Source: Accumulibacter sp. (GTDB taxonomy: Bacteria; Pseudomonadota; Gammaproteobacteria; Burkholderiales; Rhodocyclaceae). From it: a stretch of DNA of 18,879 nucleotides. Each line of letters starts with the position of its first letter. Positions within the stretch are counted from its first letter, which is position 1. A program made the position numbers and the translations under genes. The DNA is taken from NCBI GenBank assembly GCA_003538495.1, contig DPSD01000150.1, positions 1-18,879 on the forward strand. The letters run 5' to 3'. Under the pieces are notes generated by a model. The model made no database searches and was not told the DNA's origin. It was given only the letters and a program-made list of their open reading frames with translations. Below are positions 3,297 to 18,216 of the stretch, piece after piece.

Positions 3297-3866
3297 TCAT
3301 TGTTCAACACCGGCCCGCTTCCGAACGCGCGCGCGAAACATGCGCCACAGCCAGAAAGCCAGGCCAGACGCCACAATACCCACCAGCACAACCTCCTCGA
3401 CGGTCCGCAGGTCGGCAGCGCTGATCGCGGCGCCGAAGCCGTATCCGGCGCCGGTGATCAGCGCCGCCCAGAGCGCTGCTCCGATGGTGTTGAGCAGCGC
3501 GAAGCGCAGCAAGGGCAGCCGACTTGATCCGAGCAGCAGCGGACCAGCGATGCGCAGTCCGTAGAGGAAGCGGATGCTGAGGATGAAAATGATGCTGTAG
3601 CGTTGCAACAGATCGTCGATGCGCGGCTTGCGGCGCGCCAGGGCCGGAAAACGTTCGATCAGCGCCTGGCCCTTCCAGCGACCGAGCAGAAAGGCCAACT
3701 GGTCGCCCAGGGTGGCACCGATCGTCGCCACCAGGGTCACCAGGCGCCAGTCCAGCAAGCCGCGATGGGCGGCAAAGCCGGCGGCGATGAGCAGGGTCTC
3801 GCCTTCGATGAGCGTGCCGACGAAGACCGCCAGGTAGCCGTAGGTGGCGACGAAGGCGCTGATCAT
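3297..3866 (-). CDS. DedA family membrane protein
   Basis: The 189-residue protein has the DedA (VTT/SNARE-associated) layout: a hydrophobic start with EGETLL (residues 21-26), then GATLGDQLAFLLGRWKG (50-66), and the arginine-containing re-entrant block RFLYGLRIAGPLLLGSS (99-115) followed by RFALLNTIGAALWA. DedA proteins are inner-membrane proteins tied to lipid-carrier (undecaprenyl phosphate or phospholipid) flipping and membrane homeostasis; the exact substrate here is unknown. The start ATG overlaps the stop of the sensor kinase gene by 4 bases (tcat at 3863-3866 on the plus strand), so translation is probably coupled to the kinase. Placement behind a QseBC-like system suggests a link to envelope stress or lipid modification, which is inference. 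Confidence 0.88.
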   Translation of the reverse strand: MISAFVATYGYLAVFVGTLIEGETLLIAAGFAAHRGLLDWRLVTLVATIGATLGDQLAFLLGRWKGQALIERFPALARRKPRIDDLLQRYSIIFILSIRFLYGLRIAGPLLLGSSRLPLLRFALLNTIGAALWAALITGAGYGFGAAISAADLRTVEEVVLVGIVASGLAFWLWRMFRARVRKRAGVEQ

Positions 3867-5176
3867 TCTGGTGGCCGGCCTTGCCGGTAGCGGAAGAGCA
3901 GACCACTGCCCTCGTGCCGCGCATGCAGGCTCACGGTTCCGCCCAGACGGGTAGCCGCTTCGCGAGCGATGGTCAGTCCGAGGCCACTGCCTTCGCTGCC
4001 GTTACCCGGTATCCGGTAGAAGGAATCGAACACGCGTTCACGTTCCAAGGCAGGAATCCCCGGGCCGTTATCGACGACCTCGATGGTGGTGCATTGGTCG
4101 CCCGAGCGCAGTCGAAGCGTCACCTCGCCCCCCTCGGGCGTGTACTTCAGCGCATTCTCGAGGGCGTTCCTGATGATCAGTCGAAACGCTTCAGGGGCGC
4201 CGCGAATGCGCAGCCGCGTGATTTCGTCCAGCCCCAGGTCGATTCCTTTGTCCTCGGCGCAGGGCAGGAGGTCGGCGATCAGTTCGCGAGCCAGCAGCGA
4301 AACGTCGACCTCGGTTTGGCCGTTGCTTCCGGCTTGCGTCCTGGCGAGATTCAACAACTGCTCGGTCAACTGGCGCGCGCGCTCGATACCCGCCTGGAGA
4401 GGCCGCACGCGCTCACCAACGGCGTCGAGCGATCCGGCGTGCGCGAGATTCTGGATCTGTACCGACAGCGCAGTGAGCGGGCTGCGCAGTTCATGGGCGG
4501 CATCGGCGACGAAACGTCGCTGTTGCCCGAGCAGGTGATTGACCCGTTCCAGCAAGCGGTTGATGGCGTGCACGAAAGGCGTGATCTCCTCTGGCAGGCC
4601 ATCGGCGGCGATCGCTTGCGGATGATCTGCGGGCTGTTCGTCCAGACCCCGGGAGAGCCTGGTGATCGGCGCCAGTTCACGGCGGACGACGCGCACGATC
4701 AGGACAGTCAACACCGGAATCAGCAGCAACAACGGGATCAGGGTGTGCAGAGCACTGTTGACGGCGACTTCGTCACGCGCTTCGGTAGGCTGCATGACGA
4801 CCGTTCGTTTTCCTGACGCGCCGTCCAGGATGAACACCCGCAATCGCTCGGTGCCCGCGCGCACGGTGCGAAAGCCGCTCCGCAGATCGGCTGCGAGCCA
4901 GTCGGGTCGTTCGTCGCGCGGGAGATGGATGATCGTGATTCGCGATTCGGGGTCGTTGAGCTTGATCTTCGGGGAGCTTTGCGGCGACCCTTCCGGCAAC
5001 CAACTGGCGACGCCCGCGCTGGCGTTCAGCGAAGCGATCTGCCGCAGCATGTCGTCCTGGAATTCCTTGGCTTCCGAATAGCCAAGCGCAAACGAGGCGA
5101 TGGCCGCCACCAGGCCGGCGATCACGATCACGCTGCCCAGCATCAGCGACAGCTGAAGTTGCAAGGATCGCTTCAT
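3863..5176 (-). CDS. Sensor histidine kinase, QseC/PmrB type
   Basis: The 437-residue protein starts with a membrane helix (about residues 9-31), has a roughly 110-residue periplasmic region and a second helix (about 146-165), then a HAMP-like linker. The H-box FVADAAHELRSPLTALS carries the phosphorylated His228. The N-box asparagine is Asn341 in NALENALKYTPEGG, the G1 box is DNGPGIP (369-375) and the G2 box is GSGLGL (396-401). All catalytic elements are intact. It phosphorylates the partner regulator encoded just upstream. The start overlaps the regulator stop by 4 bases (ATGA), and GGTGGA lies about 8 bases before the ATG. The family is usually QseC/PmrB/TctE-like; the signal sensed cannot be read from the sequence. 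Confidence 0.9.
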   Translation of the reverse strand: MKRSLQLQLSLMLGSVIVIAGLVAAIASFALGYSEAKEFQDDMLRQIASLNASAGVASWLPEGSPQSSPKIKLNDPESRITIIHLPRDERPDWLAADLRSGFRTVRAGTERLRVFILDGASGKRTVVMQPTEARDEVAVNSALHTLIPLLLLIPVLTVLIVRVVRRELAPITRLSRGLDEQPADHPQAIAADGLPEEITPFVHAINRLLERVNHLLGQQRRFVADAAHELRSPLTALSVQIQNLAHAGSLDAVGERVRPLQAGIERARQLTEQLLNLARTQAGSNGQTEVDVSLLARELIADLLPCAEDKGIDLGLDEITRLRIRGAPEAFRLIIRNALENALKYTPEGGEVTLRLRSGDQCTTIEVVDNGPGIPALERERVFDSFYRIPGNGSEGSGLGLTIAREAATRLGGTVSLHARHEGSGLLFRYRQGRPPE

Positions 5177-5835
5177 GCGGATTTGTCCACCATCCAGCCG
5201 GCTCCGCGGACGTTCTTGATGATCGCCGCTCCGAGCTTGCGGCGCAGGCCGTGGATCAGAACGTCGATGACGTTGCTTTCCACTTCCTCATTCCAGCCGT
5301 AGATGCGTTCTTCGAGTTCGTCGCGAGTGAGAATCGCGCCGGGACGGAGCAACATGGCATGCAGCAGCGAAAACTCGCGCGCGCTCAGCCGTTCCACCAC
5401 CTCGCCACAGCGAACTTCGTGGCTGGCGGGGTCGAGACTGAGCTTGCCGTTGCTCAGCAGCGGTGCGGCGTGTCCGCCCTGGCGGCGGATGATCGCCCGC
5501 AGGCGGGCGAGCAGCTCGTCGACAGCGAAGGGTTTGACCAGGTAGTCATCGGCGCCGAAATCGAGTCCCTTGATCCGATCGTCGACCCCGTCGCGAGCGG
5601 TGATGACGAGAACCGGCACGGCGTTTCCGGCTTGCCGCAGGCGCCGCAACACTTCCAGGCCATCGCGCCCGGGCAGCCCGAGATCGAGCAGCACCGCCTG
5701 GTGTTCGCCGTTCTGGAGCACCTTGCCGGCTGTTGCGCCGTCCCTTACCCAGTCGACTGCATAGGCGGCATCCTTGAGGGCGATCGATGTCGCCTCGCCG
5801 ATCATTGCGTCGTCTTCGACCAGCAGGATGCGCAT
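5173..5835 (-). CDS. OmpR-family response regulator, QseB/PmrA type
   Basis: The 220-residue product has a receiver domain with the acidic pocket in LLVEDD, the phosphoacceptor Asp51 (in VLLDLGLPGRDG) and the conserved lysine Lys101 (in DYLVKPF). It is followed by a winged-helix DNA-binding domain with EFSLLHAML and VIDVLIHGLRRKLG. This is the standard OmpR/PhoB layout. I start at the ATG at 5835 because MRILLVEDD is the usual N-terminus. An upstream in-frame ATG at 5856 would add seven residues, and neither has a strong ribosome site. It is co-translated with the kinase and follows the PepSY gene by 235 bases. It probably controls that PepSY gene and its own operon through the repeats upstream of PepSY, by family analogy. 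Confidence 0.9.
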   Translation of the reverse strand: MRILLVEDDAMIGEATSIALKDAAYAVDWVRDGATAGKVLQNGEHQAVLLDLGLPGRDGLEVLRRLRQAGNAVPVLVITARDGVDDRIKGLDFGADDYLVKPFAVDELLARLRAIIRRQGGHAAPLLSNGKLSLDPASHEVRCGEVVERLSAREFSLLHAMLLRPGAILTRDELEERIYGWNEEVESNVIDVLIHGLRRKLGAAIIKNVRGAGWMVDKSA

Positions 5836-6070
5836 CACGATGGCCAGCATTCTCAATGCTTCATTGTCTCACCCGGCCGCTTCGGAGCAAACCGGCAAAG
5901 ACGTTTCGCTGCGTTGGCAAGCATACTGCCAGAGGCGTCCTGCCTGACTTTGGGGCAGAGAAGCCGCGTCCTTCCAATGTTCCACAGCGGTTCCTGGCCA
6001 CGGCATTCAGCGAGCCTCATCTGCCGTTTGCCGCGGCGCTGCCGCCCCGGCATTGACCTGGAGTGGACGA
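5836..6070. other. Spacer between the PepSY gene and the regulator, with small palindromes
   Basis: Just upstream of the regulator start are two overlapping short inverted repeats, GCATT-ctc-AATGC and CAATG-ctt-CATTG, around 5848-5868. CTGCC (5940-5944) and GGCAG (5954-5958) could form a weak hairpin. No clear promoter or terminator is seen, so read-through from the PepSY gene is possible. Confidence 0.3.
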
Positions 6071-6403
6071 TCAATCGTCGCGGTGGTGGTCGTCGTCGCG
6101 ATCGGTCTGATCCTCGACCGCAGCGATGATCGCGCCGCTGGTCGAGTTGACCGCCACATCGATGACCTGCTTTCCCTTGATGACTTCCACCTCGTATACC
6201 CACCGCCCCTGGTGGTGTTCGTATTCGGCACGGGAAGCCTTGCCGCCGACGTGCTGCTCCGCGGCACGGATCGCTTGCGTCAGGCTGATCCTGGCGTCGG
6301 CGCCGGCCAGGGCATCGTTGTCGGCGGAGCTGTTCGCGTAGACGCCGCCCACGGCAGTGGCAGACAGCACGGCAACTGCTGCCAGATGGAAGTTGCGTTT
6401 CAT
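6071..6403 (-). CDS. PepSY domain periplasmic protein
   Basis: The 110-residue protein begins with a clear signal peptide (MKRNFHLAAVAVLSATAVGG, cut near VYA) and then a single PepSY domain, about residues 38-97, with ISLTQAIRAAEQHVGGKAS and the closing pattern VIDVAVNSTSGAII. PepSY domains are small periplasmic modules thought to inhibit or modulate peptidases or sense ligands. The last 14 residues are very acidic and His-containing (DRDDDHHRDD), which looks suited to metal binding. The start is well supported by GGAGAAATCGCC directly before the ATG. Small PepSY genes next to QseBC-type systems are common in proteobacteria and are often targets of the regulator. Confidence 0.85.
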   Translation of the reverse strand: MKRNFHLAAVAVLSATAVGGVYANSSADNDALAGADARISLTQAIRAAEQHVGGKASRAEYEHHQGRWVYEVEVIKGKQVIDVAVNSTSGAIIAAVEDQTDRDDDHHRDD

Positions 6404-6654: not shown

Positions 6655-9600
6655 ATGTCCGCTACCCTCACCCCCCGCCTTGATATCCTGAGTGGCCCCG
6701 CGCGGCCTGATCTGATTCGCAGCGAAGTGCTCGCTGACCTGTTCGAGGCCAGTGCCCGCCGCGCCCCCGAGCAGGTCGCCCTGATCCACGGATCGCGACA
6801 GCTGCGCTACGGCGAACTCGATGCTGCCGCCGATCGTGCCGCGTCGCGGCTGATCGAGGACGGTGTGCGACCGGGCCAGATCGTCGGCCTGTTCCTGCCG
6901 CGGGGGATTGACCTGCTGGTGATGCAACTGGCGGTCGCCAAGACCGGGGCGGCCTGGCTGCCGAGTGACGCCGACACGCCGGTCGAGCGCATCGCCAGCT
7001 GTCTGGACGATGCCCGGGCGGTGGGCATCGTCAGCTGCGACGAGTTCGCACCGCGCCTGACGACCCTGGGGCGCCCGGTGTGGACCGCCGAAACGCTGCT
7101 TTCTGAAGCTGCCTTTACGCCGCAGCGGCGCCAGGGCGCGGCGCCGCAGCACCCGGCCTACGTGATCTATACCTCGGGGTCTACCGGCCAACCGAAAGGC
7201 ATCCCGATCAGCCAGGGCAGCATCTGTCACTTCCTGCGCAGCGAGAACGCGGTTCTCGGGGTGCGCGCGGACGACCGCGTGTACCAGGGCTTCTCGGTCG
7301 CTTTCGACATGTCTTTCGAAGAGATCTGGATCAGCTATCTGGTCGGCGCGACGCTGTGGATCGCTCCGAAGGAGATCGCCGCCGACCCCGAGGCGCTGCC
7401 CCGGGCGTTGATCGACAACGGCATCACCGTATTGCACGCGGTGCCGACGCTGCTGGCGCTGTTCGCGCACGATGTCCCCGGTCTGCGTCTGATCAACCTC
7501 GGTGGCGAGATGTGCCCGGAAGCGCTGGTGGCGCGCTGGGCGCGGCCGGGCCGGCAACTGTTCAATACCTACGGCCCGACCGAGGCGACCGTTTCCGCCA
7601 GCGTCGCCGAGTTGCATGCCGGCGACCCGGTGACCATCGGCACGCCGCTCCCCAACTACGGTTTGCTGGTGATCGACAGCGAGCCGAGCCGGGGCCTGCG
7701 CCTGCTGGCGCGCGGCGAAACCGGCGAGCTCTGCATCAGCGGGCCGGGAGTCGCCGCTGGCTACCTCGGGCGGCCGGAGCTGACCGCCGAGAAGTTCATC
7801 ACCAACCCGTGGGCGGTCGACCCGGCGGAGGCGCGGATCTACCGGACCGGCGATCTGGCGCGGATCGACGACGATGGTCGGGTGCACTGCCTGGGGCGCG
7901 CCGACGACCAGATCAAGATCCGTGGTTTTCGTGTCGAGTTGGGAGAGATCGAAGCGGTGCTCGCGGAACAGGCGGGCGTCGGCACCGTCGCGGTGCTGCT
8001 GCGCAAGGACGACGGCCTCGACCGGTTGGTCGCTTTCATGGTCGCCGACGGTGACGCCGCGCTGTCGCCGTCGGCGCTGCGGGCGGCGCTCGCCGAGCGT
8101 CTGCCATCCTACATGCTGCCCGACCGCTACGAGACGCTCGCCGAGATGCCGCGCCTGACCTCGGGCAAGATCGACCGTAAGCAACTGAACGCGCTGCCGC
8201 TTGCCGAACTGGCCGGCGCCGAGGGTTCCGAGACGCCGGAAACAGCGGCCGAGAGCGCGCTGTTCGCGGCCCTCGAACGCCTGTTTCCTGGGCAGCCATT
8301 GCGCCGCGACGCCGATTTCTTCGTCGATCTGGGCGGCCACTCGCTGCTCGCTGCACGTCTGGCGTCGGCGCTGCGAGCCGATCCGCGCTACGCGCAGCTG
8401 ACCGTCAGCACCGTTTACCAGCAGCGCACGGTGCGGCGCATTGCGGCGGTGCTCGAGGGCATGCACGCAGCGGCGCCGGCGGCAGCGCCGCGCTGGCAGC
8501 CGTCCCCGGCCTACCGTCGCTGGCGTTGCGGATTGGCGCAGGCGGTCGCGGTGCCGGTGCTGGTGATGCTGCGGATGGCGCACTGGCTGGCGCCGTTCTT
8601 CACTTACCACTACTACACCGGCGACCCCGGCGACTCGATCGCCTTTGCGGTGGCGATGTCCGTGCTGGTGTTTCTGATCGCTACCGCGCTCGAATTCCCG
8701 CTGGCGATCGCCGGCAAGTGGCTGGTCGCCGGGCGCCTCAAGGCCGGACGCTATCCGCTGTGGGGGCTGACCTATTTCCGCTGGTGGCTTGCCGATCGGC
8801 TGCTTGAGATGGCCCCGTCCTACCTTTTTGGCGGCTCGTCGCTGTACGTCTGGTGGCTGCGCGCGCAGGGGGCGCGCATCGGCCGTGACGTGGTGATCGG
8901 CTCGCTGACCCTGCGGGTGCCGGAACTGCTGACGATCGGCGACGGCGTCAGCATCGGCACCGCGGTGAACCTCGAAAACGCACGCGTCCTGCACGGCGAA
9001 CTGCTGCTCGGCCGCGTCGATCTCGAGGCCAACGCCTGCATCGGTTCCTGCGCGGTTATCGAGGGCAATACGCGGGTTGCCGAATGGGCTCATATCGAGG
9101 GCCTGTCCGCGCTGGCCGACGGCGTCAGCGTGCCGCCGCGGCGCGTCTGGTCCGGTTCGCCAGCGCGCGACGTCGGCGCTTTCGACCCGGCGACGCTGCG
9201 CCCACGACCGCAGGCGGGCGCCTGCCGGCTGGCCGGCGAAATGGCCTTCTTCGTGGTCGGCGCGCTGGTGATCGCAACCCTGTTTTTCATGCCGGTCTTC
9301 CCGACCTTCATGTTGATCGACCGCCTCGACGAAGCGCAGTGGCTGCCGTGGTTGCAGGGCGACGAACTGTGGCAGCAGCTGCCTCGCTACTTCGTGTTGG
9401 CACTGCCGGCCAGCGCCGTGCTGATCGTGCTCACCGCGCTGCTGTCGGCGGCCATCCGCTGGAGCGTCCTGCCGCGGTTGAACAGTGGCAGCTGGCCGGT
9501 GCACGGCAATGTCTACTGCGGCAAGTGGCTGGTCAGCCAGATCCAGGAATCCAGCCTGCAGGTGCTGCACGGCGTCTATGCCACTGTTTTTGCGCCGTGG

Positions 9601-10668
9601 TGGTACCGGCTGCTCGGGGCAAAGGTCGGCCGCGATGCGGAGATCTCGACCGCCATGGGGGTGGTGCCCGACATGCTCACCCTCGGTGACGACACTTTCA
9701 TCGCCGATGCGGTGTTGCTCGGCGACGAGGAAATCGACGGCGGCTGGATGAGCATGCAGCCGACGGTGGTGTCACGGCGCAGCTTCGTCGGCAACGGCGC
9801 TTACGTGCCCGACGGCACGACGATCCCTGAGAGCGTGCTGATCGGCGTGCATTCACGGGTACCACCCGGGAGCCTGATGAAGAGTGGCGATACCTGGCTT
9901 GGCAGTCCGCCAATCAACCTGCCGGCGCGCGAGAACGTCAGCGGCCATCCGGACTCGCTGACCTTTCGTCCGTCGCTGCTGCGCCGGCTGGGACGAGGGC
10001 TGGTCGAGGCTTTCCGGGTCGTCGCGCCGCACGCGCTGGTGATCGCCGCGGGTTACACCATCGTGCTGGACGTAATGCCTGACGCAGGCGCTGGCGACTG
10101 GGGCCTGGTGGTGTGGAAGCTGGCTGTGGCGGGGGTGCTTTTCGGCTTTGGCAGCTTTCTCTTCGTGGTCCTTTTCAAGTGGTCGCTGCTCGGTCGCTAC
10201 CACCAGCGCGCGGTGCCGATGTGGACGCCATTCGTGTGGCTGTCCGAAGCCGCGACCAGCCTTCATGAGGGGATTTCCGTTCCGTACCTGCTGAGCTACC
10301 TGCGCGGCACGCCGTGGCTGCCGGTCGCTTTCCGCCTGCTCGGCTGTCGCATCGGGCAGGGTGTCTACCTGGACACCACCGACATTACCGAATTCGATTG
10401 CGTCAGCATTGGCGAGCACAGCGAACTGAATGCCCTGGCCTGCCCGCAGACGCATCTCTTCGAAGACCGGGTGATGAAGATCGACGAGGTGCGGATCGGC
10501 GCGCGGGTGAACATCGGGCCGCGTAGCACGGTGCTCTACGGCGCCGTCGTTGGCGACGACGCGCGGCTGGGCCCGCTGACCCTGGTGATGAAGGGCGAGA
10601 GCATGCCGCCGGGGAGCTCCTGGTCGGGCTGCCCGGCCGCACCGAGCCGGTTCCGAGCGGGTGCCTGA
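6655..10668 (+). CDS. Pls/PosA-family nonribosomal peptide synthetase (A-T-six TM-three LbH)
   Basis: The 1337-residue protein opens with an adenylation domain: A3 YTSGSTGQPKG (172-182), A5 NTYGPTE (304-310), A7 YRTGDL (396-401) and the A10 lysine in SGKIDRKQL (Lys505). Next is a carrier domain with GGHSLL and the pantetheine-accepting Ser563. The rest has no condensation or thioesterase domain. Instead it has six predicted membrane segments in three pairs (near 625-690, 861-940 and 1120-1175) and three hexapeptide-repeat, left-handed beta-helix-like domains (about 735-845, 985-1100 and 1229-1335). That plan matches the family of epsilon-poly-lysine synthetase Pls (about 1319 residues), where the membrane part joins one amino acid to itself. 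A basic amino acid polymer is the likeliest product, but the substrate is unproven. No strong Shine-Dalgarno sequence precedes the ATG. Confidence 0.9.
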   Translation: MSATLTPRLDILSGPARPDLIRSEVLADLFEASARRAPEQVALIHGSRQLRYGELDAAADRAASRLIEDGVRPGQIVGLFLPRGIDLLVMQLAVAKTGAAWLPSDADTPVERIASCLDDARAVGIVSCDEFAPRLTTLGRPVWTAETLLSEAAFTPQRRQGAAPQHPAYVIYTSGSTGQPKGIPISQGSICHFLRSENAVLGVRADDRVYQGFSVAFDMSFEEIWISYLVGATLWIAPKEIAADPEALPRALIDNGITVLHAVPTLLALFAHDVPGLRLINLGGEMCPEALVARWARPGRQLFNTYGPTEATVSASVAELHAGDPVTIGTPLPNYGLLVIDSEPSRGLRLLARGETGELCISGPGVAAGYLGRPELTAEKFITNPWAVDPAEARIYRTGDLARIDDDGRVHCLGRADDQIKIRGFRVELGEIEAVLAEQAGVGTVAVLLRKDDGLDRLVAFMVADGDAALSPSALRAALAERLPSYMLPDRYETLAEMPRLTSGKIDRKQLNALPLAELAGAEGSETPETAAESALFAALERLFPGQPLRRDADFFVDLGGHSLLAARLASALRADPRYAQLTVSTVYQQRTVRRIAAVLEGMHAAAPAAAPRWQPSPAYRRWRCGLAQAVAVPVLVMLRMAHWLAPFFTYHYYTGDPGDSIAFAVAMSVLVFLIATALEFPLAIAGKWLVAGRLKAGRYPLWGLTYFRWWLADRLLEMAPSYLFGGSSLYVWWLRAQGARIGRDVVIGSLTLRVPELLTIGDGVSIGTAVNLENARVLHGELLLGRVDLEANACIGSCAVIEGNTRVAEWAHIEGLSALADGVSVPPRRVWSGSPARDVGAFDPATLRPRPQAGACRLAGEMAFFVVGALVIATLFFMPVFPTFMLIDRLDEAQWLPWLQGDELWQQLPRYFVLALPASAVLIVLTALLSAAIRWSVLPRLNSGSWPVHGNVYCGKWLVSQIQESSLQVLHGVYATVFAPWWYRLLGAKVGRDAEISTAMGVVPDMLTLGDDTFIADAVLLGDEEIDGGWMSMQPTVVSRRSFVGNGAYVPDGTTIPESVLIGVHSRVPPGSLMKSGDTWLGSPPINLPARENVSGHPDSLTFRPSLLRRLGRGLVEAFRVVAPHALVIAAGYTIVLDVMPDAGAGDWGLVVWKLAVAGVLFGFGSFLFVVLFKWSLLGRYHQRAVPMWTPFVWLSEAATSLHEGISVPYLLSYLRGTPWLPVAFRLLGCRIGQGVYLDTTDITEFDCVSIGEHSELNALACPQTHLFEDRVMKIDEVRIGARVNIGPRSTVLYGAVVGDDARLGPLTLVMKGESMPPGSSWSGCPAAPSRFRAGA

Positions 10669-11311
10669 GCGCCCGCCGGCGGCGCTGGCCAGCGCCGACG
10701 CCGATGCGCTGGCGCCTCCGGCGGCCATGATCCCGGTTCCGCTGTGGCCGTGCGCGGTCTACGACCAGGCGCGGCTGCTGGTGTTCGGCGTGCCGCTGCC
10801 GCCGGACACGCCACGTGAGCGGGCGCGCCTGCAATTGCGGCGGGTGCTGCGGGCCGTACTCGCGGCGCGGCTGGCCCTGGCTCCGGAGCAGCTGATGCTG
10901 CCTCGCCAGCCCGGCCGTAGACCACGCCTGGCGCCGCCCCACGACGGCATCGGCTTGTCGCTGGCGCATGCGCCGGGGCTGTCGCTGCTGGCCATCCACC
11001 TTGACGGTCCGGTCGGAATCGATCTGCTGCGCACGGCCGCGCTGCCGGCCGATTGGCAGCAGCTGGCGCGCGATTACCTCGGCCCGGCGCGCACGCGGCA
11101 ACTCGCCGCACTGCCGCCGGAGCACGCTGCCCCTGCCTTCGCAGGTCATTGGGTGGCGCTGGAAGCCTTGCTGAAGTGCCACGGGCAGCCCCTGGCCGAG
11201 TGGCGAGACGAGACCGAAAGACGGCTCGCGGCGTGCGTTCTCCGTCCACTGGCATTGCCGGGCGATTGGCTCGGAAGCGTGGTGCTGCCTGGCTCTGGCG
11301 GCTTCGGCTAG
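10661..11311 (+). CDS. 4'-phosphopantetheinyl transferase, Sfp type
   Basis: The 216-residue product carries the two family signatures: VGID (residues 118-121) and W164-V-A-L-E168-A-L-L-K172, equivalent to WxxKExxxK. Such enzymes move phosphopantetheine from CoA onto the serine of a carrier domain, here most likely Ser563 of the synthetase just upstream. The GTG start overlaps the synthetase stop by 8 bases, so the two are probably co-translated. An in-frame ATG at 10727 would give a 194-residue protein and cannot be excluded. Two oddities are visible: the second acidic metal ligand after GID is leucine (GIDLL rather than GIDxE), and the usual lysine before Glu168 is also leucine. The remaining key residues are kept, so it is probably active. 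Confidence 0.82.
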   Translation: MPERPPAALASADADALAPPAAMIPVPLWPCAVYDQARLLVFGVPLPPDTPRERARLQLRRVLRAVLAARLALAPEQLMLPRQPGRRPRLAPPHDGIGLSLAHAPGLSLLAIHLDGPVGIDLLRTAALPADWQQLARDYLGPARTRQLAALPPEHAAPAFAGHWVALEALLKCHGQPLAEWRDETERRLAACVLRPLALPGDWLGSVVLPGSGGFG

Positions 11312-11328: not shown

Positions 11329-11377
11329 AGGCAGCCCGGGGCGCTGCATCCGCCGCTGGCGGTGTCGCGTATCGCAT

Positions 11378-11491
11378 GTTGCAGGGTCCACCCCGATGCT
11401 CAGGCGGCAAGGGACGTGCATCGGACCCGCAGCAGGCTAGGCGCACGCGCCGGCCGGTTGCTGGCAAGCAGCCAGCAGACCACCGGCCGGC
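11378..11491 (+). ncRNA. Structured leader with two long hairpins, family unknown
   Basis: Hairpin I: GTTGC (11378), GGGT (11384) and CCGATGC (11393) pair in order with GCATCGG (11418), ACCC (11425) and GCAGC (11429), giving 16 pairs with one G-T and two bulges. Hairpin II: GCCGGCCGGT (11449-11458) pairs perfectly with ACCGGCCGGC (11482-11491), and TGCTGG (11459-11464) with CCAGCA (11472-11477) inside it. With the terminator-like hairpin that follows, the order resembles a 5' leader with attenuation. No known riboswitch consensus was recognised. Confidence 0.4.
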
Positions 11492-11503
11492 AAGCGCATT
11501 CCG

Positions 11504-11520
11504 GGGCCGAAAGCCCTTTT
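11504..11520 (+). terminator. Terminator-like hairpin in the leader
   Basis: GGGC, loop CGAAA, GCCC, then TTTT. The stem is short, but it has the T-run of an intrinsic terminator and ends ten bases before the Shine-Dalgarno sequence of the next gene. It could end the synthetase operon transcript or act as an attenuator for the PEP-CTERM-like gene. Confidence 0.4.
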
Positions 11521-11529
11521 CCTCACCGC

Positions 11530-11535
11530 AGGAGG
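11530..11535 (+). promoter_or_regulatory. Ribosome binding site that fixes the PEP-CTERM-like start
   Basis: AGGAGG lies 8 bases before ATG 11544 and is a full match to the anti-Shine-Dalgarno core. It is the best ribosome site in the window and rules out the earlier in-frame start near 11376. Confidence 0.75.
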
Positions 11536-11543
11536 TGCCAGCG

Positions 11544-12311
11544 ATGATCACACGCGAATCGAAACCCCGGCCGGCTGCGCAAAGCGCCGGCCAACCCCGA
11601 GCCAGGCGGCGAAGGTGCCGGGCGCGCGCGCTGGCGGTGGCCGCGATCGCTGGCACGATCGCGCTCGCCGGCGTTCACGACGATGCCCGGGCGACGCTGC
11701 TCAGCATCGACACCAGCGCACTTGCCGGCGTGCTGGCGCGGCTCGACTTTTCGATCATCGATGGGGACGCCGAGTTCGGCAACAACAGCTTCACGATCAC
11801 CTCGATCACCACCAACGGCTCGCTCGGGGCGGCCGATTGCAGTCTCGGCTGCGTCGGTGGCCCACCGTTTACGATCAGCGATGCGCTCGGTCTGGGGCAG
11901 TTCGTGCAGGACCTGACGCTGGCCACCACACTGTCGTTCGAGTTTACTTTCACCAGCAACTACGCCGGCAGTGGCGCGCCCGATCGAAGCGCGCTGTTGC
12001 TGCTCGACGCGGCGAGCAATTTCAGCCTGCTCGATACCGATCTTGACTTTCCGAGTGCCCCGGTACCCGTCCAGGATGCCCTGCTGGTCGTCGATCATGC
12101 TCCCGGCGCCGGGATCCGGATCGCCACGGCGTCGAATCCGAGCGTCCCGATCGCTGTCGCGGAACCAGACGCAGCGGCGCTGGTAGCGCTCGGGCTGGTG
12201 CTGCTCGGCGACCTCAGCATCCGCCGCCGCCGTGCCCGCGTATCCACCGCTACAGCGGCTGTGCCGCAGGGCAGTCGCTGGCCATCGACCGACAGCTCAC
12301 GGGGAGAATGA
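11544..12311 (+). CDS. Secreted protein with atypical PEP-CTERM-like C-terminus
   Basis: The 255-residue product begins with an arginine-rich segment and a hydrophobic signal (ARALAVAAIAGTIALAG), cleaved near DARA. The middle is a low-charge, Ser/Thr/Asn-rich beta-type region beginning LLSIDTSALAG, typical of PEP-CTERM exopolymer-associated proteins. The C-terminus has the tripartite sorting pattern: a short motif VAEP (205-208), a hydrophobic helix ALVALGLVLLGDL and an arginine cluster RRRR (227-230). In the standard signal the motif is VPEP and the protein ends soon after the arginines. Here the first proline is alanine, and about 25 further residues follow. It may be a divergent exosortase substrate or one whose signal has decayed. 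Its stop region overlaps the next gene's start region, so the two are probably co-transcribed. Confidence 0.7.
   Translation: MITRESKPRPAAQSAGQPRARRRRCRARALAVAAIAGTIALAGVHDDARATLLSIDTSALAGVLARLDFSIIDGDAEFGNNSFTITSITTNGSLGAADCSLGCVGGPPFTISDALGLGQFVQDLTLATTLSFEFTFTSNYAGSGAPDRSALLLLDAASNFSLLDTDLDFPSAPVPVQDALLVVDHAPGAGIRIATASNPSVPIAVAEPDAAALVALGLVLLGDLSIRRRRARVSTATAAVPQGSRWPSTDSSRGE
12302..12307 (+). promoter_or_regulatory. Ribosome binding site that decides the DUF4331 start
   Basis: GGGAGA lies immediately before one ATG (12308) and 6 bases before a second in-frame ATG (12314). Only the second has a workable spacing, so I start the gene at 12314. Confidence 0.55.
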
Positions 12312-12313
12312 AA

Positions 12314-13939
12314 ATGAACACATCTGCTGGATCGATCAGCCGTTTCACGGCGGCTCTGCTGCTCGCCGCCGCGTGCTTTGCCTTGCCGTCGCCGCAGGCG
12401 TTCGCTGCCAACCATCGCGAAGCGCCGCTGACCGCGCTGGACCACAAGGCCGATATCACCGACTGGTTCGCTTTCGTCAGCTACGACGACCCAACGAAAG
12501 TGACCATGATTCTCAACACCGATCCCTTGCTGGAGCCGGCGAATGGCCCCAACTACCATCCCTTCGATCCCGAGATCGCGTACGAGATGAAGGTCGACAA
12601 CAATCACGACGCACAGGAAGACGTCAGGATCGTCTTCCGATTCCAGTCCGAAACGCGGCTACCCGGCGTGTTTACCGGCTTCGTCGGCGCCGGCAGCGGG
12701 ATCGCCGCGCCGGCCAATTCACCGGCACCGGTTGCCGCCGGGACGCCGATCGTCCCGCCGGCGATCACCGCCCTGGACGGTCCCGGGTCCGCCGGCCTGA
12801 GTCTGCGACAGAGCTATACAGTGACCATTCAGAAGCGCAGCGGCAGCGTCTGGCAGACGGTGTTCTCCAGCGGCAGCCAGAAGCTGTACGCGGTGCCAGC
12901 CAACGTCGGGCCGCGCACGATGCCCGACTACCCGTACCTCGCGCGGCAGGGCATCTACAATCTCGGCGGCGGCGTCAGGGTCTTCGCCGGGACCGTCGAC
13001 GATCCGTTCTACATCGATCTCGGGGCTGCCTTCGACACCCTCAACTTCCGCCCCGGCGCGTTCGCCAGCGGCGTCCCGGCGGTGCTCACCAACGATCAGG
13101 ACGCGGTCGGCAGCGACAACTTCGCGCCCGACTCGGTCGCCGGCTACAACGTCAACAGCATTGCCATCGAATTGCCGATTGGCATGCTCACCAGCGACGG
13201 CGCCAGCCACCCGGCCAGCGACGCGAAGGCGGTGATCGGCACCTACGCCACCACCTCGAGGCCGCGCATCAAGGTGCAGCCGACGACTCCGGGCGGCAAG
13301 CCGTCCCTGTCGACCAACTTCGTGCAGATTCAGCGGATGGGCAACCCACTGATCAACGAACTGCTGATCGGCACTGGCGACAAAGACAAGTTCAGCATGG
13401 CCGAGCCGAAGAATGACAGCCAGTTTGCCAGTTACCTGCTCGATCCGCTGCTCGCCCGCGTGATCAACGCCGCCTACGCGGGCGCAGTGCCCATCCCGGC
13501 GGCCCCGCGCGTCGATCTGTTGCCGCTGGTGACCTACGCAGCGCCAATTTGCCCCGGGTGCACGCCGGCACAGGCCGGACCCGTGGCCGACCTGTTGCGG
13601 CTGAACACCGGCATTCCGCCTACAGCCCAGGCCAGCCGCAAGCGCCTGGCGGTCCTGGCCGGCGACCTTGGCGGCTTCCCCAACGGCCGTCGGGTCTCCG
13701 ACGACGTGACCGACATCGCGGCGCGGGTGGTCGTCGGCGTACTCAAGCCGGCGTTCAACGTCTTCCCGAACAACCGCATCGGCGACGGCGTCAACAGCAA
13801 CGACGTGCCCTACCAGGAGACCTTCCCCTACGTGGCCTTTGCCCAGAGCGGGCGCGACAGTCGCCATCAGAAACCCGGTACGCCGGGCTGCGTGGCGCCG
13901 ACGTCGCCCTTCGTACCGGTGCTCTGCCCGCAGAACTGA
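12314..13939 (+). CDS. DUF4331 family exported protein
   Basis: The 541-residue protein has a signal peptide (hydrophobic FTAALLLAAACFALP, cut near AFA). The mature form begins ANHREAPLTALDHKADITDW, the conserved DUF4331 opening (the family shows HREAP followed by a D-x-TD-W/F motif). The domain spans most of the chain, with FDPEIAYEMKVDNNHD and NFRPGAF among the recognisable parts. The C-terminal third has a CPGC pair (about residue 414) and two further cysteines close to the end, which could form disulfides or bind metal. DUF4331 has no assigned function; members are secreted or periplasmic and often sit near HupE-like and TPR genes, as here. An ATG two codons earlier overlaps the previous stop (ATGA) but is too close to the ribosome site. 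Confidence 0.85.
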   Translation: MNTSAGSISRFTAALLLAAACFALPSPQAFAANHREAPLTALDHKADITDWFAFVSYDDPTKVTMILNTDPLLEPANGPNYHPFDPEIAYEMKVDNNHDAQEDVRIVFRFQSETRLPGVFTGFVGAGSGIAAPANSPAPVAAGTPIVPPAITALDGPGSAGLSLRQSYTVTIQKRSGSVWQTVFSSGSQKLYAVPANVGPRTMPDYPYLARQGIYNLGGGVRVFAGTVDDPFYIDLGAAFDTLNFRPGAFASGVPAVLTNDQDAVGSDNFAPDSVAGYNVNSIAIELPIGMLTSDGASHPASDAKAVIGTYATTSRPRIKVQPTTPGGKPSLSTNFVQIQRMGNPLINELLIGTGDKDKFSMAEPKNDSQFASYLLDPLLARVINAAYAGAVPIPAAPRVDLLPLVTYAAPICPGCTPAQAGPVADLLRLNTGIPPTAQASRKRLAVLAGDLGGFPNGRRVSDDVTDIAARVVVGVLKPAFNVFPNNRIGDGVNSNDVPYQETFPYVAFAQSGRDSRHQKPGTPGCVAPTSPFVPVLCPQN

Positions 13940-13951
13940 GCGCCGGTCACA

Positions 13952-13988
13952 CCCGCCCCTGGCTCCGGCCGAGCGACCGGGGGGCGGG
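13952..13988 (+). terminator. GC-rich hairpin after the DUF4331 gene
   Basis: CCCGCCCC (13952-13959) is perfectly complementary to GGGGCGGG (13981-13988), with CCGG pairs possible inside the loop. It starts 12 bases after the stop codon. No T-run follows, so it may reduce rather than stop transcription into the TPR gene. Confidence 0.4.
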
Positions 13989-14035
13989 CGGCCAGCGTGC
14001 CGGCGGCCGATCAGTGCGTACGCGCGAGGACGACG

Positions 14036-15223
14036 ATGAACAGGACCATCGACTCTGGCCACTGCCGGCTCACCTGGCCGGCGCTGCTCGCTTCCCTGTG
14101 GCTCGTGGCGACCGGCGCGATGGCCGTTCCGTACCTGCCGACTGCCGACCAGCAGGTTCTCGAACGTTTGCCGCTGGCGCCAGCCGACCCCGTCGCCCGC
14201 GAGTTGCGCGCGCTGCGCCAGGAAGTCGCCAGGCAGCCGGAACGGCTCGACCTCGCGGTACAGCTCGCGCGCCGCTACACCGAGCTGGGCCGGGTAAGCG
14301 GTGATCCGCGCTTCGCCGGCTACGCGCAGTCCAGCCTGGCACGATGGTGGGCGCTGCCTGAACCGCCTTCCGAAGTGCTGCTGGTGCGGGCGACGCTGCG
14401 CCAGCGTACGCACCATTTCGACGCCGCCTTGTCCGACCTGGCGACGCTGGTACGGCGAAATCCCCGTGACGGCCAGGCTCGGCTGACCCGCGCAACGATC
14501 CTGCAGGTGCAAGGCGCTTTTGCCGCCGCGGCGGCCGAATGTGCGGCCTTGCGACGCCTGGCCACCGAGCTGGTGTGGGCGGCGTGCGCTTACGGGCTGG
14601 CCGGCGTCAACGGCCGTTTGCGCGAGAGCCATCAAGCGCTCGCCGGGCTGCTGGACAGACAGCCCGACGCGCCACCAGAGGTCCGCGCCTGGGTCCTGTC
14701 GATGCTGGCCGAGATGGCCGTTCGAGCCGGTCTGGACAGCCAGGCCGAGGCTCATTTCCGCCAGGCGCTGGCGATCGACCCAGGCGATCACTATCTGCTG
14801 GCCGCTCGCGCCGACTTCCTGCTCGACCGCGGCCGCGCCCCGGAGGTGGTCAGATTGCTCGCCGCGGAGCCGCGTAGCGACGCCCTGCTGCTGCGCTACG
14901 CGCTCGCCCTCAAGGCCTTGAAGGCACCCGAATGCGACGCCCGCGTCGAGCAATTGCGGGCACGCTTCGCGGCCAGCCGGATGCGCGGCGAGCGCGTGCA
15001 CCTGCGTGAAGAAGCGCGCTTCACGCTGGAATTGCTGGGCGACCCACCGGCCGCGCTGGCGCTGGCGCGGGAGAACTGGGCAGTGCAGAAGGAGTTGCCC
15101 GACCTGCGCTTGCTGCTGGAAGCTTCGCTGGCGGCTCGCGACGTGGCCGGGGTAGGCAGCGTTCGCCAATGGCTGGCGCAGTCCGGCGCCGAAGACGTTG
15201 CCGTCAACCGCCTGCTGCGTTAG
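14036..15223 (+). CDS. Exported TPR-like repeat protein
   Basis: The 395-residue product has a signal sequence (WPALLASLWLVATGAMA) and then an alanine/leucine/arginine-rich all-helical body. Several stretches fit tetratricopeptide repeats, for example LLVRATLRQRTHHFDAALSD, followed by a run ending in NPRDGQARL, and AEAHFRQALAIDPGDHYLLA. TPR proteins are scaffolds for protein-protein contacts; no catalytic motif is seen. ATG 14036 is chosen because GAGGAC lies 5 bases upstream and the signal peptide then starts at residue 1; an earlier ATG (13997) would bury the signal. It sits between the DUF4331 and HupE-like genes, 8 bases before the latter, which suggests that the three products work together at the cell envelope. 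Confidence 0.75.
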   Translation: MNRTIDSGHCRLTWPALLASLWLVATGAMAVPYLPTADQQVLERLPLAPADPVARELRALRQEVARQPERLDLAVQLARRYTELGRVSGDPRFAGYAQSSLARWWALPEPPSEVLLVRATLRQRTHHFDAALSDLATLVRRNPRDGQARLTRATILQVQGAFAAAAAECAALRRLATELVWAACAYGLAGVNGRLRESHQALAGLLDRQPDAPPEVRAWVLSMLAEMAVRAGLDSQAEAHFRQALAIDPGDHYLLAARADFLLDRGRAPEVVRLLAAEPRSDALLLRYALALKALKAPECDARVEQLRARFAASRMRGERVHLREEARFTLELLGDPPAALALARENWAVQKELPDLRLLLEASLAARDVAGVGSVRQWLAQSGAEDVAVNRLLR

Positions 15224-15231
15224 GACGACCG

Positions 15232-16383
15232 ATGGTGACCGCCGGCTTCCTCTCGATGCGCGTGCTGAGAGCGCTCGTTCTATTGTTCGTCCTGCTGGCT
15301 GTGCCGCCGGCTTTGGCACACAAGCCCAGCGACAGCTACCTCAGCCTGGAGGTCGACGACCACGGAATCCAGGGACAATGGGACATCGCCCTGCGCGACC
15401 TGGATTACGCGATCAGCCTTGACGACGATCAGGATGGGGCGATCACCTGGGGCGAACTGCGCGCTCACCACGCCGATATCGCCGCTTACGCGCTGGCGCG
15501 GCTCGAACTGTCGGCGGACGGCGACGGGTGTCCGGCGCGCGTCGTCGCGCAGCTGGTTGACGAACACACCGATGGCAGTTACGCGGTATTGCGTTTCGCC
15601 GCCACTTGCGGGCATGTCCCACAAGTCTTCACTGGCAGCTACCGGTTGTTCTTCGATCTGGATCCGCAGCACCGCGGGCTGCTGCGCCTGCAGCATGCGG
15701 GTCAGACGCGCACCGCCATCTTCAGCGACGCGACCCCGGTACAGCAGTTCCAGCTCGGCGAAACGACGCCGCTGCGCCAGTTCTTGGACTACATGGGGCA
15801 CGGTGTCCGGCACATCTGGGGCGGCTTCGACCATTTGCTGTTTCTGTTGTCGCTGCTCCTGCCGGCCGTGCTGATTCGCGTCGACCGCGCCTGGAACGGA
15901 GCCGAGCGCTTCCGGGACTGCTTCCGGGATGTGTTCAAAGTGGTTACCGCGTTCACGCTCGCCCACTCGATAACGCTGTCGCTGGCGGTGCTGGACGTCG
16001 TTCAACCGCCTTCACGGTGGGTTGAGTCGGCGATCGCCGCCTCGGTCATTGTCGCCGCGCTCAACAACCTGATTCCACTGGCGCGAAACAGCCGCTGGTT
16101 GTTGGCTTTCATCTTCGGCCTGATTCACGGCTTCGGCTTCGCCAGCGTGCTGGCTGGTTTGGGATTGCCGCACGCCGCCTTGCTGAGCGCCCTGGTGGCC
16201 TTCAACGTCGGCGTGGAGCTGGGCCAGCTGGCGGTGGTCGCGCTCTTCCTGCCGCTGGCGTGGAGCGTCCGCAAGCGCTGGATCTATCGCCGCGGCGTGC
16301 TCGCCGGCGGCTCGCTGCTGGTGATCGCGACGGCCAGTGTGTGGTTGATCGAGCGCGCCTTCGACCTGAAGCTCTTGCTCTGA
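15232..16383 (+). CDS. HupE/UreJ family membrane protein with EF-hand loop
   Basis: The 383-residue protein has a signal peptide (VLRALVLLFVLLAVPPALA), and the mature chain begins HKPSDSYL. A soluble region of about 150 residues follows, then about six or seven membrane helices with the histidine motifs GHGVRHIWGGFDHLLFLLSL, AFTLAHSITLSL and LIHGFGFASVL, typical of the HupE/UreJ type. HupE/UreJ proteins are linked to nickel or other metal uptake. This long form, with an N-terminal extracytoplasmic domain, is uncharacterised. Residues 64-75 (DDDQDGAITWGE) match a canonical EF-hand calcium loop with Asp at 1, 3 and 5, Gly at 6, Ile at 8 and Glu at 12. AGGA lies 6 bases before ATG 15232 and overlaps the previous stop. 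A start at 15256 is also possible. Confidence 0.85.
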   Translation: MVTAGFLSMRVLRALVLLFVLLAVPPALAHKPSDSYLSLEVDDHGIQGQWDIALRDLDYAISLDDDQDGAITWGELRAHHADIAAYALARLELSADGDGCPARVVAQLVDEHTDGSYAVLRFAATCGHVPQVFTGSYRLFFDLDPQHRGLLRLQHAGQTRTAIFSDATPVQQFQLGETTPLRQFLDYMGHGVRHIWGGFDHLLFLLSLLLPAVLIRVDRAWNGAERFRDCFRDVFKVVTAFTLAHSITLSLAVLDVVQPPSRWVESAIAASVIVAALNNLIPLARNSRWLLAFIFGLIHGFGFASVLAGLGLPHAALLSALVAFNVGVELGQLAVVALFLPLAWSVRKRWIYRRGVLAGGSLLVIATASVWLIERAFDLKLLL

Positions 16384-16437
16384 TATGGGCCGGCGCCGCA
16401 GCTCCCGTGCATCCAGAAGCGGCGCTCGGCCGTATCA
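16381..16437 (+). terminator. Long hairpin containing the HupE stop codon
   Basis: Starting at the TGA stop, TGATAT-GGCCG-GCGCCGC pairs with GCGGCGC-CGGCC-GTATCA, giving 18 base pairs (one G-T) with one bulged base on each side and a 19-base loop. It is the strongest hairpin in the window. No T-run follows. It could end the operon through Rho, stabilise the 3' end or affect termination of translation. Confidence 0.5.
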
Positions 16438-16449
16438 GGTGACAAATGT

Positions 16450-16530
16450 ACGGTGCCCCGCCAGGTGCCGTTTTCTGGTGTTTTCCACGGGCGGATGGTT
16501 TCTGTCGCCCGGCTAGCCGCTTGGCACCGT
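16450..16530 (+). ncRNA. Candidate three-way-junction RNA, family unknown
   Basis: ACGGTGCC (16450-16457) pairs perfectly with GGCACCGT (16523-16530) and encloses two further stems: CCAG (16461-16464) with CTGG (16475-16478), and CGGGCG (16488-16493) with CGCCCG (16506-16511). The closed-junction layout is that of many regulatory RNAs, but I recognise no consensus and have not tested it statistically. Confidence 0.3.
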
Positions 16531-16679
16531 TATCCGGAGTAAGCGCAAGATGACGCCACGAAATGCCGATGAGCTGCCTTCCCGCTTGCCGCACCCCGGC
16601 GTGCTCCTGCGTCCGTCGGGCGCCACCGACCCGGTCGACGGGTGGCGGCGAGAGCAGCAGCCGGAAACCGCGGCGTCGT

Positions 16680-16708
16680 TTGGCTGCGAGATCGTGATCG
16701 GGCACAAT
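16680..16708 (+). promoter_or_regulatory. Possible promoter of the sigma factor operon
   Basis: TTGGCT (16680-16685), 17 bases, then CACAAT (16703-16708) is a fair sigma-70-like pair that would start transcription about 25 bases before ATG 16742. TGATCG (16695-16700) lies between them; TGATC is reported as a -35 core for ChrR-linked sigma factors, but no clear partner element follows. Confidence 0.3.
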
Positions 16709-16741
16709 GGGCCGTTACCCAGCGTCGGCGAGAGCGACGAC

Positions 16742-17365
16742 ATGAGCGAGACGGATGTGTTCGATGACGGCGCGCGCGGCGGCTATCGGGCGCTGGCCGG
16801 TGAGGCGCAACTGCAGGCGTGGATCGCCGCGGTCGCTGGCCAGGACCAGCAGGCGCTGGCGAAGCTCTACGAGGCGATGGCCGGGCGGGTGTACGGTCTG
16901 GCGTTGCGCATCACGCGCCAGGTGCAGTCCGCCGAGGAGGTCGCCGAGGACGTTTTCTGGCAGGTCTGGAGGCAGGCGCCGCGCTTTGACGCGACGCGCG
17001 GCAGCGCCGTGGCGTGGATCCTGACCATTGCCCGCAGCCGTGCACTCGATGCCTTGCGCCGTCGCGACCGCGCCGAACCGCTGGCGGACGAGCGCCTGGC
17101 TGCGCTCGCCGACGACGCCGATCCGCAGGATCTGCTGGCGGCGGTGCAGCGACAGCATCGGCTGCACGCGGCGCTGCGAAGCCTCGATCCCTTGCCCCGG
17201 CAATTGCTGGCGCTGGCCTTCTTCCGGGGGCTTTCGCACGAGGAAATCGCCGCCCAGATGAGCTTGCCGCTGGGTACCGTCAAGTCCCACATCCGGCGCG
17301 CGCTGTTGCGCCTGCGCCAGTTGCTGGGCGCCGACGATTCCCCTTCCCCGATGGTGACCCGATGA
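16742..17365 (+). CDS. ECF RNA polymerase sigma factor (RpoE/ChrR-linked type)
   Basis: The 207-residue protein has the two conserved parts of a group 4 sigma factor. Region 2 (about residues 38-110) includes AEEVAEDVFWQVWRQAPRFD and the helix WILTIARSRALDALRRRDR. Region 4 (about 148-196) includes LPRQLLALAFFRGLSHEEIA and the recognition helix LPLGTVKSHIRRALLRLR. It directs RNA polymerase to a small set of promoters when its anti-sigma partner lets go. The gene downstream, overlapping by ATGA, encodes a ChrR-like cupin protein, which fits the ECF group that responds to oxidative or photooxidative stress. I chose ATG 16742 from the usual sigma factor length; the Shine-Dalgarno sequence is poor. 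Likely targets include its own operon and perhaps the envelope genes upstream, which is inference. Confidence 0.87.
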   Translation: MSETDVFDDGARGGYRALAGEAQLQAWIAAVAGQDQQALAKLYEAMAGRVYGLALRITRQVQSAEEVAEDVFWQVWRQAPRFDATRGSAVAWILTIARSRALDALRRRDRAEPLADERLAALADDADPQDLLAAVQRQHRLHAALRSLDPLPRQLLALAFFRGLSHEEIAAQMSLPLGTVKSHIRRALLRLRQLLGADDSPSPMVTR

Positions 17366-18216
17366 ATGCCGATCTCCACCCGTTTGCCGACGACGCTGGC
17401 ACACGCGACGAGCATCTCCTGAGGCAGCTGCTCTGCGAAGCGCTGGCGCCTGCGGAACTGTCTGCCGGTAGCCACGCCGGCCTGCGCCGCCGCTTGCTGC
17501 AACGCGTCGGCGAGAGTGCGCGCAAACACGCCGGCCTGCGCACCGTTCGCTCTGGCGATGGTATCTGGCGTACCGTCAGGGCCGGCATCGCGGCCAAGAT
17601 GCTGTGGCAGGGGCCGCAAGGCGCGTCGGTGCTGATCGAATTCGCACCCGGTGCGAGCCTGCCGGTTCATCGCCACCAGCACCTCGAGGAAGGCATCATT
17701 CTGCGCGGTGACCTGCACCTGGCTGACCTGCAGCTGCGTCCTGGCGACTACCACGTCTCACCGCCGGGCAGCCGGCACGGACGCATCTCGTCGCGTGCTG
17801 GCGGCCTGGCCTACCTGCGCGGGACCTCGCTCGGCCACCGCCAGGCGGCCATCGGCGAATTGCTCGGCGGCCTGCTGCCGGGCGACGGACCGGCGGTCCA
17901 CACGTGCTTCGCCAGCGAAGAAGGCTGGCTGAGCGTCGCCGATGGTGTGGACGAGAAGCTCCTCTGGCAGGACGGCGAGATGCGTTCGCGCTTCCTGCGA
18001 TGGCGCCCGGGCGGCTGCTTGCCGGCGCACGTCCATGCCGGTGACGAGGAGTGCATGATGCTCAGCGGCGATGTCTTCTTCGGCGATCTGCTGGTCCGCG
18101 CCGGCGATTTTCACCTCGCGCCGGCTGGCAGCGAGCACGGCGGGGTGTTCAGCGACAGCGGCGCGATGGCCTTCGTGCGTAGCCGAGGGGGCCCGAACAT
18201 GCGGTCAGCACGGTGA
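17362..18216 (+). CDS. ChrR-like double-cupin protein, putative anti-sigma factor
   Basis: The 284-residue protein has a helical N-terminal segment (about 1-60) and two cupin domains. Each cupin has the same metal-ligand pattern: His103, His105, Glu109, His139 in the first, and His223, His225, Glu229, His259 in the second. The spacing (2, 4 and 30 residues) is identical in both and, from memory, equals that of the zinc site of Rhodobacter ChrR. ChrR has a zinc-binding anti-sigma domain plus one cupin. Here the HxxxCxxC motif of that domain is missing (only Cys25 is nearby) and the cupin is doubled. The 4-bp overlap with the sigma gene makes a regulatory partnership likely. Alternatively it could be a metal-dependent enzyme or sensor without sigma-binding ability. 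Confidence 0.8.
   Translation: MNADLHPFADDAGTRDEHLLRQLLCEALAPAELSAGSHAGLRRRLLQRVGESARKHAGLRTVRSGDGIWRTVRAGIAAKMLWQGPQGASVLIEFAPGASLPVHRHQHLEEGIILRGDLHLADLQLRPGDYHVSPPGSRHGRISSRAGGLAYLRGTSLGHRQAAIGELLGGLLPGDGPAVHTCFASEEGWLSVADGVDEKLLWQDGEMRSRFLRWRPGGCLPAHVHAGDEECMMLSGDVFFGDLLVRAGDFHLAPAGSEHGGVFSDSGAMAFVRSRGGPNMRSAR

Follow-up and report, generated by a model that had tools for sequence, protein, structure and literature searches.

An 18,879-nucleotide stretch of DNA from Accumulibacter sp. (assembly GCA_003538495.1, contig DPSD01000150.1; the whole stretch is called the window below) carries on its forward strand a gene for a synthetase of the Pls/PosA family, directly followed by a gene for a 4′-phosphopantetheinyl transferase. 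The two genes are read here, with high confidence, as a cassette for delta-poly-L-ornithine, in which the transferase would prime the carrier domain of the synthetase, the adenylation domain would load ornithine, and the terminal domain would polymerize it. An earlier note on this DNA had recognized in the synthetase the architecture of epsilon-poly-lysine synthetase; the family assignment stands, but the pocket is the ornithine pocket of PosA from Acinetobacter baumannii, and the predicted product is very probably delta-poly-L-ornithine, not epsilon-poly-lysine.

Synthetase and substrate pocket

The synthetase open reading frame (ORF; 6655..10668, forward strand) runs from an ATG at 6655 to the stop at 10668 and comprises 1337 codons. 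TIGR02353, the NCBIfam model of the Pls/PosA terminal domain, matches residues 628–1328 with 792.6 bits against a curated cut-off of 423.1, covering positions 2–695 of the 695 in the profile; the earlier note had staked its reading on a Pls terminal region at residues 600–1337, and the match there is strong. In a Pfam scan (E ≤ 0.01), AMP-binding, AMP-binding_C, PP-binding, and Hexapep exceed their cut-offs, there is a single adenylation and carrier module, and no condensation or thioesterase family is reported. The adenylation domain occupies residues 30–512 (6742..8190; PF00501, 243.9 bits; PF13193, 32.9 bits) and the carrier domain residues 545–599 (8287..8451; PF00550, 27.6 bits), where the attachment serine S563 (8341–8343) sits in the motif GGHS and is serine in 85 of 85 aligned rows. 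Pfam, hydropathy, and an AlphaFold2 model thus agree with the layout first proposed for this protein: adenylation and carrier domains joined to six membrane segments and three hexapeptide domains, with no condensation or thioesterase domain.

Among PDB sequences the synthetase is matched best by 8g95–8g98, the adenylation domain of A. baumannii PosA (8g95 is the best match for the adenylation domain), and PosA, represented in all later comparisons by an A. baumannii gene in plasmid-collection records (L001), is 53.4% identical to the synthetase over 99% of the length. According to the PosA paper (PMC10522769), PosA activates ornithine, has the pocket DMEHNGTVSK, and makes delta-poly-L-ornithine of 7–12 units in vitro; its activity is abolished by D217A and E221A and lowered by T304A and S313A, and M218A leads to more use of lysine. 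The second pocket residue is Ala in lysine enzymes and Phe in diaminopropionate and diaminobutyrate enzymes (PMC10522769). The window synthetase agrees with PosA at 10 of 10 pocket positions (DMEHNGTVSK, starting at D218, codon 7306..7308); the lysine-type pocket is absent, the second code position being Met219 and not Ala.

This pocket recurs among relatives, which number 2574 proteins at E ≤ 1e-20 among 7995 candidates scored. Listed first is a terminal half with 98% identity from an ENA contig of 26.6 kb (P0001), followed at about 75% by matches from Paucibacter, Roseateles, and Niveibacterium. In a set of 85 loci, made up of the window, 4 plasmid loci, and the 80 best among 532 relative-encoding genome stretches, the code is DMEHNGTVSK in 78, DMEHNGSVSK in 4, DMEHNGTVTK in 1, and DLEDIG[ST]VVK in 2. 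Among 31 further neighbourhoods, all nine with 58–77% identity to the window carry the PosA code; the 22 that are less than 46% identical carry DLED[IL]G[ST]VVK (13), DFEALGTVTK (6), and, once each, DVEANGTGSK, DMEHNGTVTK, and DSECYGGVTK. Both DVEANGTGSK (L132) and DSECYGGVTK (L148) are unusual, and the latter is the code given for an arginine-activating Bdellovibrionales homolog (PMC10522769). Actinobacterial proteins have DFEY[VLM]GTVTK in all 12 examined of the 120 listed. In a quick maximum-likelihood tree built from 53 chosen rows, the window falls within a clade of 37 rows that includes PosA (Shimodaira–Hasegawa-like approximate likelihood ratio support 100) and groups with Uliginosibacterium L005 and one more genome (support 96), although long branches meet, the window's side included, as the tool warned; the nearest named synthetase is from a Zoogloeaceae metagenome-assembled genome.

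The earlier note had contrasted this protein with characterised members that are mostly actinobacterial, but its novelty is lower than that suggests: PosA homologs are reported across numerous bacterial phyla and also from fungi and archaea, Actinobacteria and Proteobacteria each forming a major cluster or clusters (PMC10522769). Synthetases of the Pls/PosA type are widespread but patchy: TIGR02353 exceeds its cut-off in 6 of 150 genomes from the family to which G001, the source of L005, belongs (G001 is included in the count), in 26 of 398 sampled genomes of the phylum of L005 (27 at E ≤ 1e-60), and in 1 of 14 control genomes. Pls-type enzymes of Proteobacteria are not new, and the window synthetase is a further, predictable member of the family described from A. 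baumannii.

The adjoining transferase

The second gene (10661..11311, forward strand) encodes a protein that matches PF01648 with 33.8 bits against a cut-off of 25. A carrier-activating enzyme does follow the synthetase, as first described; the overlap claimed for the two genes is doubtful because it needs a GTG start at 10661. Residues ~4–21 counted from this GTG have no counterpart in 10 relatives; ATG 10727 is the more likely start by comparison with these relatives, which it fits better, giving a protein of 194 amino acids (34.1 bits) and leaving a 58-nt gap after the synthetase. The database gene call of the identical 216-amino-acid protein (P0241) uses GTG 10661.

Relatives of the transferase number 68 proteins at E ≤ 1e-5 among 7996 candidates scored. 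In an alignment of 68 rows, which counts the window, L003, and L004 twice, the Asp of GxD and the W and E of W..xEA..K are present in every row and the later K in 67; the GxD Asp, the Glu, and the following Lys are all found in the window transferase. The Asp and the Glu are presumably metal-binding, as in Sfp. The canonical Sfp-type motif has a lysine in KEA and a third acidic residue in GIDIE; the window transferase has Leu at both places, and across the rows the first is mostly Arg or Leu (Lys in L003 and L004 only) and the second mostly Met or Leu.

Of the 80 genome loci, 63 have a same-strand transferase directly downstream of the synthetase; with the window, L003, and L004 included, the count is 66 of the 85 loci. 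These counts come from a domain-trimmed profile that replaced a first one, dropped after out-of-frame ORF extensions had spoiled it; its seeds are the window, L003, and L004 proteins, which are thus not independent, and it is biased to the betaproteobacterial type, so that other transferases may escape it. On Rhizobium and Sphingomonas plasmids, too, the synthetase is followed by a transferase; none stands beside the synthetase gene in Azospirillum L002. Twenty-nine of the 31 further neighbourhoods could be judged (L147 and L153 were left out at contig ends). Eight of these carry the PosA code, and 5 of the 8 (L127, L128, L149, L150, and L151) have a transferase next to the synthetase on its downstream side; the count for the 21 with other codes is 0, a lower bound because of the bias of the profile. 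L138 (pocket DLEDIGSVVK) has a transferase match upstream of its synthetase, not downstream.

Little else around the synthetase is shared. When the 14 other window proteins were compared with the 84 other loci by tblastn (E ≤ 1e-6), 12 matched the window only, and what is conserved is therefore the pair, not its surroundings; the comparison across relatives that the earlier note had proposed thus shows the pair kept and the other neighbours not conserved. The two exceptions, a histidine kinase and a response regulator, matched 6 and 4 other loci, mostly not adjoining the synthetase; in 35 further loci a sigma factor matched 1 (L149, 29% identity), the kinase 1, and the regulator 2. Greedy ORF clustering gave a 36-locus cluster at the place of the transferase and other clusters common to at most 11 loci; such clustering picks wrong-frame ORFs in GC-rich DNA, and direct tblastn was relied on for this reason. 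No description of the pairing was found in the literature searched, which was mostly without subscription papers and excluded the supplements of PMC10522769.

Terminal domain and proposed mechanism

Hydropathy gives six peaks in the terminal domain (627–649, 657–692, 854–891, 908–940, 1119–1141, and 1149–1180) and two lesser ones (76–95 and 252–270) within the soluble adenylation domain. An AlphaFold2 model of residues 520–1337 (47 sequences; mean predicted local distance difference test score 88.8; predicted template modelling score 0.89) contains six long helices in three pairs, each pair followed by a region rich in beta-strands. From the model and hydropathy, helices 1 (residues 619–655, helix 100–136 of the model; 8509..8619) and 2 (662–691; 8638..8727) precede the first beta-strand region, C1 (698–852; 8746..9210); helices 3 (856–893, broken; 9220..9333) and 4 (905–937; 9367..9465) precede C2 (938–1104; 9466..9966); and helices 5 (1108–1145; 9976..10089) and 6 (1149–1179; 10099..10191) precede C3 (1179–1337; 10189..10665; PF00132, 43.0 bits). 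The model has a beta-helix in each of the three regions, and PDB chains of hexapeptide proteins and gamma-carbonic anhydrases match them weakly by sequence (C1, E 1.1e-4; C2, E 7.9e-5; C3, E 0.0036); for C1 and C2 the evidence is PDB matches, model, and conservation. No chain among the listed PDB sequence matches spans the terminal domain; receptor chains that matched a membrane stretch were taken as spurious. The best structural matches in Foldseek are maltose, galactoside, and serine acetyltransferases and complex-I gamma-carbonic anhydrases; for the whole terminal domain it returned single beta-helix or carrier matches, with a best template modelling score by query length of 0.15 among the 50 matches listed, and a whole-length match may be missed, the model being long.

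Conservation is uneven across the three regions. The terminal-domain alignment holds 225 rows, many of them close relatives (219 distinct proteins and 6 repeats): 92 proteobacterial rows including the window, 102 from actinobacterial protein hits and plasmid loci, another 24 from Proteobacteria, and 7 distant ones (about 32% identity), among them L148, which scores under the TIGR02353 cut-off. Positions conserved in at least 95% of every group number 7 of 155 in C1, 10 of 167 in C2, 15 of 159 in C3, and 1 per membrane pair. The C3 set includes Q1265, H1267, E1270, K1275, Y1295, K1313, and E1315. No histidine of the terminal domain other than H1267 (10453–10455) is invariant; 2 rows have a gap at this position, and the remaining 223 all have His. 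In the 7 distant members E996, R1092, D1248, and R1272 are changed in most rows and the seven C3 residues are kept. This pattern suggests one catalytic centre, in C3, rather than three, and the invariant D1018 and N1047 of C2 possibly join it at the C2/C3 interface.

The PosA paper, which agrees with a single centre, proposes that the three regions together make up a single domain of roughly threefold symmetry (PMC10522769); a passage in a review still terms them three condensation-like domains (PMC8949500). The C3 residue set was not found described in the literature searched, which was also searched for later work on the terminal domain and on other polymers, within the limits given above.

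Hexapeptide acyltransferases and gamma-carbonic anhydrases are single small domains that form trimers. Tentatively, and with less than even confidence, the terminal domain may be a fused hexapeptide-acyltransferase pseudo-trimer with one working centre (H1267, E1270, K1275, Y1295, K1313, and E1315, perhaps with D1018 and N1047) that lies in C3 or where C2 and C3 meet, so that an acyltransferase fold, not three condensation domains, would make the repeated peptide bonds; on the same tentative footing, the betaproteobacterial synthetase and a private transferase of atypical motif would form a portable two-gene unit.

The order of events would be as follows. The transferase would transfer phosphopantetheine from CoA to S563 of the carrier, and the adenylation domain would activate L-ornithine with ATP and load it on the phosphopantetheine arm, roles assigned because of the families of the two proteins. 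The membrane-set terminal domain would then link successive ornithines, delta amine to carboxyl, over many rounds, yielding a short cationic isopeptide chain. Its hexapeptide-acyltransferase-like fold would form the bonds in place of a condensation domain, and a single centre in C3 is the most likely site. We infer the PosA product here, the action of the transferase on this carrier, and the site of bond formation; the polymer may serve in competition, for example through antifungal activity.

Alternatives, genomic setting, and known relatives

Several observations weigh against this reading of the cassette. No product of any betaproteobacterial member was found reported in the literature search, and overall identity to PosA is only about half; H1267 and its companions are candidates from conservation alone; and no ornithine-supply, export, or immunity gene was found conserved beside the synthetase (ORF clustering and tblastn of 84 loci). 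Seventeen of the 80 genome loci lack an adjacent transferase despite 2.9–8.1 kb of downstream sequence, and Pfam found no transferase in one downstream ORF from each of 10 of these 17, a weak check, as 6 of these ORFs had no family match at all and are perhaps not real genes. No transferase is annotated within 6 kb of A. baumannii posA, and purified PosA was activated with Sfp in vitro (PMC10522769); for these two reasons the pairing is not essential.

Three other explanations bear on the product or on the transferase. It is very unlikely that the synthetase polymerizes or oligomerizes a different diamino acid (lysine, 2,4-diaminobutyrate, or 2,3-diaminopropionate), as actinobacterial Pls-type enzymes do: the family is the same and the PosA adenylation domain has modest lysine activity (PMC10522769), yet PosA makes no lysine polymer, the second pocket residue is Met as in PosA and not Ala or Phe (PMC10522769), and the actinobacterial code given above differs. 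Most unlikely of all is that no free polymer is made and one or a few ornithines are placed on a lipid, glycan, or other membrane acceptor. The membrane placement, the hexapeptide-acyltransferase fold, and the lack of an export gene directly beside the synthetase would suit such a role, but PosA, of the same architecture and pocket, yields free 7–12-mers in vitro (PMC10522769), and no acceptor-pathway gene was found conserved beside the pair.

That the transferase is a general housekeeping or secondary-metabolite activator, located here by accident, is rather unlikely. Phosphopantetheinyl transferases are often promiscuous, and A. baumannii posA has no adjoining one; against this, the transferase is adjacent in most genome loci while the surrounding genes differ, and it keeps its place behind the synthetase on the Rhizobium and Sphingomonas plasmids as well.

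Upstream and divergent from the synthetase lie a PepSY protein (6071–6403), an OmpR-type response regulator, and a histidine kinase (3863–6403 in all, reverse strand). Rhizobium L003 and L087 show this order upstream of their synthetases as well (the small protein of L003 matches PepSY weakly, 17.4 bits, below the cut-off of 24), and a regulator and kinase lie upstream of the synthetase in L150 and downstream in L046. Response-regulator matches occur in 5 of 85 loci, the window included, and in 2 of 35 further loci, counts that were judged, without a computed control, compatible with chance for genes as common as these; regulation by the adjoining two-component system is a weak lead. As the earlier note had observed, no export or resistance gene directly adjoins the pair, nor does an immunity gene; a transporter of the major facilitator superfamily is 3.5 kb upstream on the opposite strand. 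A scan found no promoter-like sites (0.2 expected) and 2 terminator-like sites (2.3 expected).

Just 3′ of the transferase is a probable PEP-CTERM protein (11376–12311, forward strand; NF038129, 45.2 bits, below the cut-off of 65), and a PEP-CTERM protein is likewise encoded downstream of the synthetase in L033. By Pfam, a co-directional run then encodes a DUF4331 protein, a tetratricopeptide repeat protein, a HupE/UreJ-like membrane protein, an extracytoplasmic function sigma factor, a ChrR-type cupin, and a polyketide-cyclase-like protein (12308–18752, forward strand); it appears to be a separate group under sigma-factor control, with no relation to the cassette. The DUF4331 protein, searched in plasmids, matched below 60% everywhere.

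If the prediction is right, delta-poly-ornithine activity extends to a large betaproteobacterial group with an identical or near-identical pocket, and the product prediction is therefore directly testable outside a pathogen. The paired transferase would make the cassette easy to express for cationic polymer making, and the single conserved centre offers a concrete mutagenesis target in a bond-forming domain for which the PDB sequence search gave no solved structure. The conserved transferase pairing and the C3 residue set go further than what was found in the PosA paper (PMC10522769) and in the literature searched.

Among known systems, PosA (PMC10522769; PDB 8G95–8G98) has the same domain order, six membrane helices, and three beta-helices as the window synthetase; its product has been shown, whereas that of the window synthetase is predicted, and PosA is described as a single-gene operon and has no adjoining transferase, whereas a transferase lies directly 3′ of the window synthetase. 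Pls, the epsilon-poly-L-lysine synthetase (adenylation domain, 7wew), shares the family and the three-part architecture but has Ala in the pocket where the window synthetase and PosA have Met (PMC10522769), and its adenylation domain scores 269.7 bits with the window synthetase, compared with 536 for that of PosA, although the PosA chain is the shorter (414 vs. 509 residues). C1, C2, and C3 have their beta-helix fold in common with hexapeptide acyltransferases (maltose, galactoside, and serine acetyltransferases) and with gamma-carbonic anhydrases; unlike these proteins, the terminal domain of the window synthetase holds three beta-helices in one chain with six membrane helices.

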